Shown here: positions 13,141 to 56,145 of the stretch, piece after piece
Position numbering within the stretch: the stretch's first letter is position 1
Layout of the letters: the number at the start of each line of letters is the position of its first letter
NCBI RefSeq assembly: GCF_018128285.1
Contig: NZ_CP072380.1
Coordinates: 1,984,001-2,048,000, forward strand
Source: Atopobium sp. oral taxon 416
GTDB lineage: Bacteria > Actinomycetota > Coriobacteriia > Coriobacteriales > Atopobiaceae
Length of the DNA stretch: 64,000 bases
Reading direction: 5' to 3'
Position numbers and translations under genes: made by a program
Notes under the pieces: model-generated
What the model was told of the DNA's origin: nothing
The model's input: the letters and a program-made list of their open reading frames with translations, nothing else
Database searches by the model: none

Positions 13141-13152
13141 TTTTGGTGGGGC

Positions 13153-13645
13153 GAATTAGCATTTTGAGTGCAACAGGATAGCGCCAGGCAGAGGTCGTGG
13201 TGCACTCCCAAAGGCTGCGATGTTGGTTGTATAAGCCATCATCGAACGTCGAGGGGAAATGCACCACTACACTCATCTTAGCGCCGCTGAGCGCAACAAG
13301 ATCGCGAAGATGTACATCAGGTACTACTCACCCAGCAGCATCGCAAAGGCATCAGACAAAAGACAGCTCCAACGTGAGCCGCAAGCTTGAAAGGAACAGC
13401 CCACAGGAGAGACTATGGTGCCTGCGTGGCTCCAAAGGAGGGCAAGTGCGCACCGCGATGCCTGCAGGGCACGCAAGAGGCTGGCTGCACAGGTAAGGTC
13501 GCTTCATCGTGGATGAGCATTGGTCATCCGAGCAGGTGGCAGGCAGGATCTTGGCGTCGTGAGCTTTGCGGCCATCTTCCGTACGCGACTTTGGCGCCCT
13601 GGACTCTCCCCGCACCCAACCAAACGAGCGACTGGAAGGGGAAGC
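13153..13645 (+). mobile_element. IS30-family element, 5' fragment
   Basis: The left end (ATTAGCATTTTGAGTGCAAC) and about 480 bases that follow are nearly identical to the reverse complement of 55650-56140. The reading around 13260-13350 is HYTHLSAAERNKIAKMYIRYY with SSIAKAS, the helix-turn-helix N-terminus of IS30 transposases. After about 13640 the similarity stops and the HAD pseudogene begins, so the 3' half is missing. Confidence 0.75.
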
Positions 13646-13649
13646 GCCC

Positions 13650-52544: not shown

Positions 52545-53126
52545 CTACTTTCCCTGCCAGACGATACGGGGCTTCAGGTCTTCGACTCCCGTCTCGCCAA
52601 GATAGTGCTCAACGATTGCAAAGCTGAAATCGATGGCCGTACCCATGCCACGGGAGGTGATGATGTTGCCGTCGACGACGACAGGAGCTTCAGAGTAGAT
52701 GGCATCGCCCTCGACGCATGTATCTTTGAAGTTCGGATTCGACGTTGCATGCTTCCCCTTGAGAAGACCAAGTTTCGCGAGGACGGAAGGCGCAGCACAG
52801 ATGGCAGCGATCTCCTTGCCGGTCTGGGCGAACTCCACGACTTTGTCTGTCAGTGCCTTGCAGTTGCCGAGGTTCAAGGTACCCGGCATGCCGCCCGGAA
52901 GGACGAGCATGTCATACTCATCGAAATCGAGGTCCTCGATCCTCTTGTCTGCCACGATGTGGATCTGATGGGACGACGTCACGTCCTTCGTACCCGTGAT
53001 GGATACGGTATCGCAGGGGATGCCAGCACGGTAGAGAAGGTCGCATACCGTGAGGCCCTCTATCTCCTCGAGGCCATTGGCAAGGAAGACCGCAACCTTC
53101 TTGTCAGATGTCTGCCTGAATGTCAC
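52545..53126 (-). CDS. DJ-1/PfpI-family protein
   Basis: This 193-residue cytoplasmic protein has the DJ-1 fold. The start VAVFLANGLEEIEGLTVCDL contains the conserved Glu, LVLPGGMPG follows near residue 68, and the nucleophilic Cys lies in IAAICAAPSVLAKLGLL near residue 106, followed by ITSRGMGTAIDFSFAIVEHY. Members act in carbonyl stress defence or as chaperones; the exact role here is unknown. I chose GTG at 53126 because AAAGGAG lies 5 bases before it; the frame is open to 53213. It is divergent from the NifU-like gene, with a shared inverted repeat between them. Confidence 0.9.
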   Translation of the reverse strand: MTFRQTSDKKVAVFLANGLEEIEGLTVCDLLYRAGIPCDTVSITGTKDVTSSHQIHIVADKRIEDLDFDEYDMLVLPGGMPGTLNLGNCKALTDKVVEFAQTGKEIAAICAAPSVLAKLGLLKGKHATSNPNFKDTCVEGDAIYSEAPVVVDGNIITSRGMGTAIDFSFAIVEHYLGETGVEDLKPRIVWQGK

Positions 53127-53163
53127 AGCTGCTCCTTTCGTTAAGAAATTGCTATCTCCATTC

Positions 53164-53169
53164 ATTATA
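53164..53169 (-). promoter_or_regulatory. Candidate -10 box of the DJ-1 gene
   Basis: On the minus strand a perfect TATAAT occurs 38 bases upstream of the GTG start. No good -35 is visible at the standard distance, which fits regulation from the neighbouring inverted repeat. Confidence 0.45.
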
Positions 53170-53193
53170 CCCTCGAGTCTTCTGGCCTCCATC

Positions 53194-53219
53194 TGGCCAT
53201 TTTCTGAGGACAATGGCCA
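53194..53219. promoter_or_regulatory. Inverted repeat between DJ-1 and the NifU-like operon
   Basis: Perfect 8-bp arms TGGCCATT and AATGGCCA are separated by ten bases. The site lies between the two divergent start codons (53126 and 53330), immediately upstream of the DJ-1 -10 box, where an operator for a shared regulator would be expected. Confidence 0.5.
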
Positions 53220-53329
53220 TCTGCAAATTCAAAATGGCACATATCTGTGTTCGCAGTATTATCGGTTTAGCAAGCTGTGCCTTGGCTCATAGGGGGTTTG
53301 AGGCCGATTGCATTTGGAGAGGAGAATCC

Positions 53330-54022
53330 ATGCAGTATTCCGCAGAAGTGGAGAGGATGTGCCCCGTTGCCAAGGGCGCAGACCACGGACCTGCACCAAT
53401 TCCCGAGGAGGGGAAATGGGTTCAGGCGAAAGAGATCAAAGACATCTCTGGTTACACGCACGGTGTAGGCTGGTGCGCACCGCAGCAGGGTGCCTGCAAG
53501 CTCAGCCTCAACATCAAGAACGGCGTCATTGAAGAGTGCCTGATCGAGACCATCGGTTGCTCCGGCATGACTCACTCTGCAGCTATGGCAGCAGAGATTA
53601 TGCCTGGCAAGACGATTCTCGAAGCTCTCAACACTGACCTTGTCTGCGATGCAATCAACGTTGCAATGCGCGAGCTGTTCCTCCAGATTGTCTATGGCCG
53701 CTCTCAGACCGCATTCTCTGAAGGTGGACTGCCTATCGGCACCGGCCTCGACGACCTTGGCAAGGGTATGCGCTCCATGGTCGGCACCACCTATGGCACC
53801 AAGGCAAAGGGCGCCCGCTACCTCGAACTCACCCAGGGCTACATCACCCACATGGCGCTCAACGACAAGGATGAGATCGTGGGCTTTGAGTTTCTAAACC
53901 TCGGCAAATTCACCGACGCAGTCAAGGCTGGCACCGATCCTAAGAAGGCCTTGGACGGCGCAATGGGTCGCTTCGGTCAGTGGGATCAGGCTGCTAAAGT
54001 CATCGATCCGCGTCAAGAGTAG
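53330..54022 (+). CDS. NifU/IscU-like scaffold protein paired with GGGtGRT
   Basis: This 230-residue protein resembles the NifU N-terminal/IscU scaffold fold. Cys56 in GACKLSLNIKNGVIEECLIE and Cys77 in IGCSGMTHSAAMAAEI align by pattern with the first two cluster ligands of IscU. Further Cys at 11, 49, 70 and 106 are present. Residues 130-230 (LPIGTGLDDLGKGMRSMVGT, then ARYLELTQGYITHMALNDKD) form an extension not found in classical IscU. ATG at 53330 follows GGAGAGGAG. It ends 18 bases before the GGGtGRT gene, with a shared terminator after the latter. The pair is known in anaerobes as a conserved unit of unknown function; a role in cluster or sulfur handling is inference. Confidence 0.88.
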   Translation: MQYSAEVERMCPVAKGADHGPAPIPEEGKWVQAKEIKDISGYTHGVGWCAPQQGACKLSLNIKNGVIEECLIETIGCSGMTHSAAMAAEIMPGKTILEALNTDLVCDAINVAMRELFLQIVYGRSQTAFSEGGLPIGTGLDDLGKGMRSMVGTTYGTKAKGARYLELTQGYITHMALNDKDEIVGFEFLNLGKFTDAVKAGTDPKKALDGAMGRFGQWDQAAKVIDPRQE

Positions 54023-54040
54023 GGAAAGGAGCTGATAGAC

Positions 54041-55045
54041 ATGGCAGTGACGTTTGAAGGTTATGAGCGCCGTATCGATGGCATCAAGAAAGCCTGCAAG
54101 AAATATGGCATCAAAGACCTGAAGGATGCACGTAAAATCTGCACCGATCTCGGGTTTGATCCGTACGCTATCACCACCGGCATTCAGTCAATCGCGTTTG
54201 AGAACGCTAAGTGGGCATATACACTAGGCTGTGCAATCGCAGTCAAGAAGAACTGCACCAGAGCAACCGATGCTGCAGAGGCTATCGGTGAGGGCCTGCA
54301 GGCATTTTGCGTCCCTGGCTCCGTTGCAGACGAGCGCAAGGTCGGCCTGGGCCACGGCAACCTGGGCGCTATGCTTCTGGGCGAGGACACCGAGTGCTTC
54401 TGCTTCCTGGCGGGCCACGAGTCCTTCGCAGCTGCAGAGGGTGCAATCGGTATCGCTAACAACGCCAACAAGGCTCGTAAGAAACCGCTGCGCGTTATCC
54501 TGAACGGCCTTGGCAAGGACGCCGCACAGATCATCAGCCGTATCAACGGCTTCACCTATGTGAAGACCAAGTTTGATTACTACACCTCCAAGCTCAACAT
54601 CGTCGAGGAGATCCCCTACTCCAAAGGTCCTCGTGCTGCCGTCAAGTGCTACGGCGCCGACGACGTCCGTGAGGGTGTCGCAATCATGTGGCATGAGAGT
54701 GTCGATATCTCCATCACCGGCAACTCCACCAACCCGACGCGCTTCCAGCACCCGGTAGCGGGCACCTATAAGAAGGAGCGTCTGGCTGCCGGCAAGAAGT
54801 ACTTCTCCGTCGCTTCCGGTGGTGGCACCGGCCGTACCCTGCACCCGGACAACATGGCTGCTGGCCCCGCTTCCTATGGCATGACCGACACCATGGGCCG
54901 TATGCACTCCGACGCACAGTTTGCTGGCTCCTCTTCGGTGCCGGCACACGTCGATATGATGGGCCTTATCGGCATGGGCAACAACCCGATGGTCGGCTGT
55001 ACCGTTGCCTGCGCTGTTGCTGTTGAGCAGGCACTGAACAAGTAA
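54041..55045 (+). CDS. GGGtGRT protein
   Basis: The 334-residue soluble protein carries the signature that names its family, SVASGGGTGRTLHPDN near residue 257, followed by MAAGPASYGMTDTMGRMHSD and DMMGLIGMGNNPMVGCTVAC. Earlier segments include IAFENAKWAYTLGCAIAVKK near 50 and GLGHGNLGAMLLGEDTECFC near 102, with FLAGHESFAAAEGAIGIANN following. No known catalytic motif was recognised. Eight or more Cys residues are present, some in positions that could bind a cluster or metal. It follows the NifU-like gene with a GGAAAGGAG ribosome site and is followed by a clear terminator. The function is not established. Confidence 0.93.
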   Translation: MAVTFEGYERRIDGIKKACKKYGIKDLKDARKICTDLGFDPYAITTGIQSIAFENAKWAYTLGCAIAVKKNCTRATDAAEAIGEGLQAFCVPGSVADERKVGLGHGNLGAMLLGEDTECFCFLAGHESFAAAEGAIGIANNANKARKKPLRVILNGLGKDAAQIISRINGFTYVKTKFDYYTSKLNIVEEIPYSKGPRAAVKCYGADDVREGVAIMWHESVDISITGNSTNPTRFQHPVAGTYKKERLAAGKKYFSVASGGGTGRTLHPDNMAAGPASYGMTDTMGRMHSDAQFAGSSSVPAHVDMMGLIGMGNNPMVGCTVACAVAVEQALNK

Positions 55046-55076
55046 GGCTTCCGCAGGCTACACCTTCGAATCATAC

Positions 55077-55111
55077 GCCGGCTTTCACCTTCTGGTGGGA
55101 GCCGGCTTTTT
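55077..55111 (+). terminator. Rho-independent terminator of the GGGtGRT operon
   Basis: GCCGGCT (55077) and AGCCGGC (55100) form a 7-bp stem, extended by imperfect pairs, followed by TTTTT. It lies 32 bases past the stop codon; an IS30 copy begins right after it. Confidence 0.88.
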
Positions 55112-55112
55112 G

Positions 55113-56145
55113 CACCGGCAGATTGTCAAGCTGAGTGCACCATCTCCCTAAAGACCTCGTTGGCTGCCCTGTAGTCTAATACCTTTCTTGGCCTGTCGCA
55201 GACCAGATCCAAGACATGTTGCACCTCCTTGTGTGAGACCTAGGAAAAGTCGCTACACCCTTAGGGGAAGAACTCACAGATGAGGACATCGGTGTTCTTA
55301 ACTATTGGCTTCTGCCACAGGTGGTGCGGCTCGCAGAAGCAAAACTTTACACCTCCCAAGGCTTTTGCGACCTTAGCCCTGCCAGGAGAGCTGCTTGGCG
55401 CAACCAGGTGTCATCGTCTTGAGCGAGGACCCCTCAAAGACGCTGAGCTGGGTAGCGCACACGCCCTTGCTGCCCACGAGCAGCCACAAGGAGCACTCGG
55501 GCAGACCTACAGGCACGCAGAGGTTGGCCCCACGACAGTGTCGGTTTGCCCACTTACCCAGACAGAAGCGCTCAGAAGGCCTCCCTTAGCCTTTCTCAGA
55601 GCATCTGGGAGACCTTGATATTGCCCCTCCTTTGGCGCCGGGCGCCTTCCTTTCCAGTCGCTCGTTTGGTCGGGTGCGGGGAGAGTCCAGGGCGCCAAGG
55701 TCGCGCGCTAGATGGCCGCAAAGCTCACGACGCCAAGATCCTGCCTGCCACCTGCTCGGATGACCAATGCTCATCCACGATGAAGCGACCTTACCTGTGC
55801 AGCCAGCCTCTTGCGTGCCCTGCAGGCATCGCGGTGCGCACTTGCCCTCCTTTGGAGCCACGCAGGCACCATAGTCTCTCCTGTGGGCTGTTCCTTTCAA
55901 GCTTGCGGCTCACGTTGGAGCTGTCTTTTGTCTGATGCCTTTGCGATGCTGCTGGGTGAGTAGTACCTGATGTACATCTTCGCGATCTTGTTGCGCTCAG
56001 CGGCGCTAAGATGAGTGTAGTGGTGCATTTCCCCTCGACGTTCGATGATGGCTTATACAACCAACATCGCAGCTTTCGGGAGTGTGCCATGACCCCTGCC
56101 TGGCGCTATCCTGTTGCACTCAAAATGCTAATTCGCCGTACCAAA
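55113..56145 (-). mobile_element. IS30-family element, opposite orientation (decayed)
   Basis: The two ends are GCAGATTGTCAAGCTGAGTG at 55118 and, read inward from 56140, AATTAGCATTTTGAGTGCAAC. The minus strand gives HLSAAERNKIAKMYIRYY near 56000 and the C-terminal DYRAANEVFREMVHSA near 55150. The first 480 bases are nearly identical to the fragment at 13153. Several frameshifts and stops are present between 55250 and 55700. Confidence 0.85.

Follow-up and report, generated by a model that had tools for sequence, protein, structure and literature searches.

The N-terminal scaffolds of IscU, SufU and NifU (PF01592, TIGR01999, TIGR03419) carry a canonical ligand set of three cysteines and one aspartate, and the chaperone-binding motif LPPVK. 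In hydro-lyases such as aconitase and iron-sulfur L-serine dehydratase, the hallmark is a [4Fe-4S] cluster that is held by three cysteines and has one iron free. Canonical enolase (Eno; TIGR01060), a magnesium enzyme, is counted among the best-known targets of fluoride and is inhibited by it.

In this study, we analyzed a 64,000-nucleotide stretch of the genome of Atopobium sp. oral taxon 416 (contig NZ_CP072380.1, positions 1,984,001 to 2,048,000), hereafter the window, in which two adjacent plus-strand genes encode NIF, an IscU/NifU-like protein of 230 amino acids (53330..54022), and GGG, a GGGtGRT protein of family PF14057 with 334 amino acids (54041..55045). It is very likely that NIF and GGG form a two-subunit alternative phosphopyruvate hydratase with no sequence relationship to enolase; the position of the pair in the enolase slot, its fluoride riboswitches, the genomes that carry it and lack eno, and an iron response opposite to that of enolase together lead to a two-subunit enzyme for this step. 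We also regard as probable the fuller proposal that an IscU-type scaffold has been turned catalytic and forms, with the GGGtGRT protein, a fluoride-proof, oxygen-labile, iron-dependent [4Fe-4S] 2-phosphoglycerate hydro-lyase that gut anaerobes contain in abundance and that explains glycolysis without eno. An earlier note on this DNA had suggested that the pair may deliver a cluster or persulfide to, or receive one from, the GGGtGRT protein; the neighbors, riboswitches, eno-less genomes and iron response favor an enzyme instead.

NIF-GGG resembles enolase in its proposed reaction, in its place between iPGM and pyruvate kinase in one genome, and in its fluoride-linked physiology. Unlike enolase, it has two subunits, neither of which matched the enolase families of Pfam or NCBIfam at E values up to 1, it is proposed to use iron-sulfur rather than magnesium, and it responds to iron in the opposite direction. 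The mechanism proposed is that of the [4Fe-4S] hydro-lyases (aconitase, class I fumarase and iron-sulfur L-serine dehydratase), although there is no sequence match to any such family. With the IscU, SufU and NifU scaffolds, NIF shares some 50 to 70 homologous residues around Cys77; however, it falls far below their equivalog cut-offs, has Gln53 in place of the first cysteine, invariant Cys49 and Cys106 and about 100 extra residues, and is partnered by GGG.

Glycolytic and fluoride contexts of the pair

In genome G528, a single strand carries, in order, the genes for GAPDH, PGK, TIM, iPGM, NIF, GGG and pyruvate kinase, the five glycolytic products being confirmed by Pfam. Each enzyme from GAPDH to pyruvate kinase is present except enolase, and NIF-GGG occupies the enolase slot. 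The neighbor scan covered 164 loci with GGG, which differ in length and often show one and the same place in overlapping views. The iPGM gene stands upstream of the pair and in the same orientation in 10 distinct loci (L031, L040, L042, L045, L051, L056, L062, G383, G498 and G528), and in G383 and G498 the genes for GAPDH, PGK, TIM and iPGM all stand upstream in that order. Judged from genome size rather than a formal null, neighbors of this kind would be rare by chance. Canonical eno was found near the pair in two loci: in L052 it is divergent and 1.1 kb away from GGG, and in L056 it follows 669 bases downstream in the same orientation. The early impression from a first clustering, that the pair has no conserved neighbors, was overturned by targeted probes that showed the glycolytic and fluoride contexts.

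The fluoride riboswitch senses fluoride, and crcB (Fluc) is a fluoride exporter. In 10 distinct loci, the Rfam fluoride riboswitch (RF01734) scored above its gathering score 35 to 194 bases 5' of NIF and in the same orientation: Vibrio (L022), Persicobacter (L020), G479, G540, G618, G650, G715, G734, G795 and G804. In an eleventh distinct locus, G443, it lies 822 bases before NIF with one gene between them. The operons of G443, G479 and G540 run on into crcB, crcB and DUF190 (Pfam was applied to all three genes in G540 and to one G443 crcB, and the others are named by similarity), and in G1039 a fluoride riboswitch and a Na/H exchanger gene directly follow GGG. A fluoride link was seen in 6 of 7 Pseudomonadota genomes whose GGG exceeds the cut-off and in 3 of the 10 Bacillota genomes with GGG. 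Our own riboswitch model, R1, drew on 5 of the 12 places that it later matched; run over 132 sources that total 1.19 Mb and in part overlap, it gave 12 strong matches, of which 10 lie upstream of NIF. At the window operon and its second copy, no fluoride riboswitch was found with Rfam (L001 and L002, E up to 0.1), and the best R1 match over the window had an E of 1.7. Palindromic regulator sites were sought in 127 upstream regions, with nothing convincing found. On a tree of 107 pairs, the glycolytic context requires at least three changes and the fluoride context at least three.

Fluoride blocks magnesium enolase, and a cluster enzyme should therefore escape it. The same neighbors and riboswitches would also suit some other fluoride-proof helper of lower glycolysis, either a substitute for a different enzyme, such as inorganic pyrophosphatase or phosphoenolpyruvate (PEP) synthetase, or a protector of enolase; PEP synthetase is likewise described as fluoride inhibited, and eno adjoins the pair in L052 and L056. 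Such a helper is, however, very unlikely, since the G528 operon holds all the enzymes of its segment save enolase and a protector of enolase would be pointless in genomes that lack eno.

Genomes without enolase and the response to iron

Canonical eno was sought with TIGR01060 at an E value of 0.001 in 41 genomes bearing G handles and 23 reached through loci, representing at least 33 of the 80 loci described below, and in 16 GGG-less genomes out of more than 1,300, chosen before their eno status was known and not at random. It was not found in 13 of the 64 GGG handles or, with G153 and G1108 treated as a single genome, in 12 of 63 distinct genomes, whereas it was found in all 16 GGG-less genomes and in all 14 named controls. 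A contig-edge piece in G202 and six matches with one internal stop (open frames of 420 to 440 amino acids) were counted as eno present. Two of the 12 eno-less genomes (G153 and G196) scored 99% complete, and another is that of the isolate Olsenella intestinalis KCTC 25379 (G1105, L027). When 13 named controls without GGG were added to the 16, the one-sided Fisher p was 0.007. Enolase-negative isolates are given as less than 0.5% of more than 30,000 in the literature, and at a rate of 0.5% the probability of at least two eno-less genomes among the 8 GGG genomes of known completeness is 0.0007; all 6 GGG-less genomes of known completeness had eno. The absences require a minimum of 10 changes on the tree, in which the eno state is known for 62 rows (handles having been mapped to loci by hand; the tested genome G1089 has no row).

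Butyrivibrio proteoclasticus B316 was the first organism described as lacking enolase, with very low activity in extracts. The Hungate1000 study extended the absence to Prevotella and Lachnospiraceae without finding a substantial complementing function, and its comparison of eno-positive with eno-negative Butyrivibrio for a compensating gene gave no substantial insight; in Endomicrobia, the absence of enolase was called perplexing, and Saccharibacteria are likewise reported to lack the enzyme. NIF-GGG could fill this gap, and the blank in Butyrivibrio would be expected if eno-positive and eno-negative strains alike have the substitute. In the open-licence PMC literature accessible to us, preprints being outside its scope, no proposal was found that links GGGtGRT/NifU to enolase or to the fluoride riboswitch.

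Published expression tables show the pair and enolase moving in opposite directions with iron, though weakly for enolase in Bacteroides thetaiotaomicron. In Clostridium pasteurianum, GGG was 7.1-fold (early) and 2.2-fold (late) higher with iron, the former being the largest early iron-induced change in that table, and NIF rose with iron in two spots, by 2.4- and 1.6-fold and by 3.7- and 2.9-fold; enolase spots were instead higher without iron, by 4.1- and 4.0-fold and by 4.8- and 1.8-fold (early and late). In Bacteroides thetaiotaomicron, the pair BT0173-0174 was 11- to 12.8-fold lower without iron (P 0). The iron-sulfur theme of the earlier note is thus upheld in so far as iron matters, the pair being raised by iron in two species. 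GGGtGRT is also reported to be strongly expressed in vivo by distantly related bacteria of the chicken caecum, and NifU and GGGtGRT proteins are recorded in a rumen metaproteome.

In B. thetaiotaomicron, the 2,3-bisphosphoglycerate-dependent phosphoglycerate mutase locus BT1658-60 rose 15- to 24-fold without iron, as listed in PMC10434189, Table 5; this rise is another sign of an iron response in lower glycolysis. The replacement of an iron-dependent enzyme by an iron-free one would parallel the flavodoxin response seen in these iron experiments.

Higher levels with iron and prominence in proteomes would also be expected of a pair that stores or buffers iron and sulfur, functionally like IssA of Pyrococcus. 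We consider this extremely improbable, as it leaves the fluoride riboswitches, crcB neighbors, glycolytic operons and missing eno genes unexplained.

The two proteins and the proposed mechanism

NIF scored 18.2 bits against Pfam NifU_N (PF01592), under the cut-off of 22; all 82 NIF homologues matched this family within an E limit of 1 (lowest, 7.1e-6) and TIGR03419 within a limit of 0.01 (lowest, 2.3e-9). Together with the roughly 100 extra residues, these matches agree with the earlier description of an IscU/NifU-like protein with a 100-residue extension. Scores against the IscU, SufU and NifU equivalog models were 24.9 bits for a cut-off of 187.9 (TIGR03419), 18.7 for 192.4 and 17.2 for 92.5, so that all lay below. 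A NIF profile scored 378 to 465 bits, far above chance, on the best match in each genome possessing NIF; two further matches in the ten genomes searched reached only 25 to 28 bits and are presumably ordinary NifU/IscU proteins.

The NifU_N-homologous part of NIF spans approximately residues 45 to 112, as judged from the best PDB match, 4eb5. Cys49 (codon 53474..53476), Cys77 (53558..53560) and Cys106 (53645..53647) are each unchanged in 82 of 82 NIF sequences, Cys56 is kept in 73 and Cys11 in 72. In the alignment to 4eb5, Gln53 stands opposite the first IscU cysteine and Ala55 opposite the aspartate, Cys106 lies off the ligand positions and only Cys77 falls on one, that of the second cysteine; the canonical IscU ligand set is therefore not kept in NIF. 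The LPPVK motif is absent from the NIF consensus, which has GGLPIGAGL there instead. Of the two IscU ligand cysteines that the earlier note had supposed to be retained, the second is in place and the first is not, and its choice of Cys56 for mutation is superseded by the invariant Cys49. Three invariant cysteines are thus available for the predicted hydro-lyase-type cluster.

The IscU-like character of NIF, the rise of the pair with iron and the presence of suf genes beside it in 3 of 95 loci would fit a module that matures, carries or repairs iron-sulfur clusters for other enzymes and is induced by fluoride through damage to metal centers. The three loci are all from Collinsella (L024, L029 and L034), with the pair shortly downstream of sufD, sufS and sufU; in the remaining 92, Collinsella probes for SufS, SufU and SufD had no match, and because suf genes are so seldom nearby, a scaffold or carrier role was dropped as first choice. 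Such a module is quite unlikely, since the canonical ligand set is not kept and the role would leave the enolase slot in glycolytic operons and the eno-less genomes unexplained. Over the window, probes for Collinsella SufS, SufU and part of SufD gave a single SufU match, NIF itself. The earlier remark that neither a cysteine desulfurase nor SufBCD is encoded nearby accordingly stands for SufS and, with the partial probe, for SufD; SufB and SufC were not among the probes.

GGG is matched over its full length by PF14057 (641.6 bits versus a cut-off of 27; positions 1 to 327 of 327), as the GGGtGRT signature recognized in the earlier note had implied; the literature on this family, as far as it was accessible, states no function. 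Residues R99, H105, H126, E127, E133, K159, D160, R234, H237, R265, H268, D270, D283, R287, H289 and H303 are invariant in 87 of 87 sequences. A PDB profile search with GGG returned one match, with an E of 0.72, which we took as chance. Weak, ordered similarity was seen between GGGtGRT (window 54041-55045) and a threonine synthase (L141 1087-2235), at 19.9 bits, which is below threshold, and an hhalign probability of 18%. This lead protein scored 32.7 against GGG, above all 150 random neighbor proteins (best, 25.9), and the other 25 of 26 pyridoxal phosphate (PLP) fold-type II proteins scored at most 23.7; the means were 18.1 for the 26 and 15.7 for the 150. Kinship of GGG with the PLP fold-type II proteins is not supported, a profile of the 26 having scored 15.6 versus 24.5, 24.4 and 15.3 for reversed controls.

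We propose that NIF is the iron-sulfur subunit and GGG the substrate-binding and acid-base subunit of an enzyme that would convert 2-phosphoglycerate to phosphoenolpyruvate and water. Cys49, Cys77 and Cys106 of NIF would hold a [4Fe-4S] cluster with one iron left open, and this iron would bind 2-phosphoglycerate through its 3-hydroxyl, in the manner of aconitase-type or serine-dehydratase-type hydro-lyases. GGG would bind the phosphate, for which its glycine-rich GGGTGRT loop seems apt, as well as the carboxylate, and would supply the acid-base residues. The reaction would eliminate an alpha proton and a beta hydroxyl, both of which are found in serine as well as in 2-phosphoglycerate. With no magnesium pair at its active site, the enzyme would be indifferent to fluoride. 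It can be envisaged that cells rely on NIF-GGG under ample iron and without oxygen, with magnesium enolase as a fallback under iron shortage, and that canonical eno can be lost where the iron supply is safe.

Distribution, layout and weight of the evidence

Among 148 genomes from the phylum of G198 (Desulfobacterota-type, Syntrophorhabdus) GGG was found in 3, and among 199 from that of G199 (Bacillota) in 10; NIF, at an E of 1e-20, was found in exactly those 3 and 10, so that 13 genomes have both and none has one alone (n = 347). NIF lies upstream of GGG in 80 of 80 loci, some cut by contig ends, these being the best 80 of at least 587 relatives, and in 22 of 22 further loci, 11 of which belong to the 13 paired genomes. 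The earlier note had named co-occurrence and gene order as a check, and the tight linkage of the two families confirms its view of the pair as a module. In the window's phylum, a search of 198 genomes detected GGG in 8, the window's own among them and all from the same taxonomic order. The Pseudomonadota gave 8 of 299 at an E of 0.001, 7 of them over the cut-off and the eighth a threonine synthase; the counts were 1 of 148 in Bacteroidota (the center genome itself) and 7 of 100 in Spirochaetota.

In the window, the two genes are intact and separated by 18 bases. The ribosome-binding sites, read from the sequence, are GGAGAGGAG at 53316..53325 (+) for NIF and GGAAAGGAG at 54023..54031 (+) for GGG, and GAGAGGAG is present in 19 of 127 upstream regions (overlapping loci counted). 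A terminator scan placed the intrinsic terminator of the operon at 55077..55111 (+), with a 13-pair stem (55077-55106) followed by a T run; of the 4 terminator-like sites in the stretch, versus 1.8 in shuffles, it is much the longest. The closely spaced genes, strong ribosome sites and shared terminator of the earlier note are all borne out.

The segment at 53314..55148 (+) is duplicated in the same genome, approximately 96 kb away, at 99.0% identity over 1835 bases. The second copy starts 16 bases 5' of the NIF start codon, and the sequence upstream of that point differs from that of the window copy. All 14 codon differences between the two NIF-GGG copies are synonymous, so selection appears to act on both, unless they are kept alike by gene conversion. 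The upstream region of the window copy is also found in the close relative L025; the other copy is therefore probably the newer one.

Several observations concern the surroundings of the pair. A DJ-1/PfpI-like gene, named by eye, lies divergent to NIF at window 52545-53213 (-), and just 3' of the operon is a repeat, 96.7% identical over 508 bases (window 55640-56145 and 13142-13649), that is probably an insertion-sequence remnant. In two Clostridia (L045 and L051), approximately 1.4 to 1.6 kb separates NIF from GGG, with nucleotidyltransferase and HEPN-like genes (L045 4810-5982 and L051 4806-5982) and one more open reading frame (ORF) in between; by eye, the inserted genes resemble an MntA/HepT toxin-antitoxin pair. 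A small annotated 63-amino-acid ORF separates the genes in Parabacteroides (L023 4791-4982), and in Treponema UBA1240 (L075 5267-5967) the NIF alignment falls into two pieces, through a frameshift, an assembly error or decay of the copy. In other species, the 3' end of the GGGtGRT gene resembles an integration site for phages and other integrative elements. GGG lies within about 2 kb of the contig end, with a tyrosine-integrase gene next to it, in 7 of 7 viral contigs (L011-L017), and direct repeats of the gene end occur downstream (196 bp at 96% and 169 bp at 98%; L019 7131-7301 and L100 12382-12486 are such places); in Bacteroides fluxus (L142 and L143), the repeat is 210 bp at 90%, about 24 kb away.

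A number of points weigh against an enolase role for NIF-GGG. The enolase activity and the cluster are inferred from genomic and published expression evidence. Canonical eno is kept in 51 of the 63 distinct GGG genomes, including those of the window and G528, and the one-sided Fisher test against the 16 matched controls is borderline (p 0.052). Most of the eno-less genomes are drafts or metagenome-assembled genomes of unknown completeness, and the scattered absences may reflect repeated loss or, in part, missing contigs. The neighbor and riboswitch counts stand without a formal null, and at most loci, the window included, the probes used met neither glycolytic nor fluoride neighbors. The very low activity of B316 extracts fits only if the substitute is oxygen labile or absent. 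Finally, the B. thetaiotaomicron row that contains eno (three genes) rose 2.0- to 7.7-fold without iron with a P of 0.144, a weak response.

In conclusion, a named two-gene candidate makes the question of the enolase-less bacteria directly testable. If the proposal is true, iron enters central glycolysis, the carbon flow of gut and rumen bacteria becomes tied to iron and fluoride, and an iron-sulfur scaffold fold would be shown to have been turned into an enzyme.

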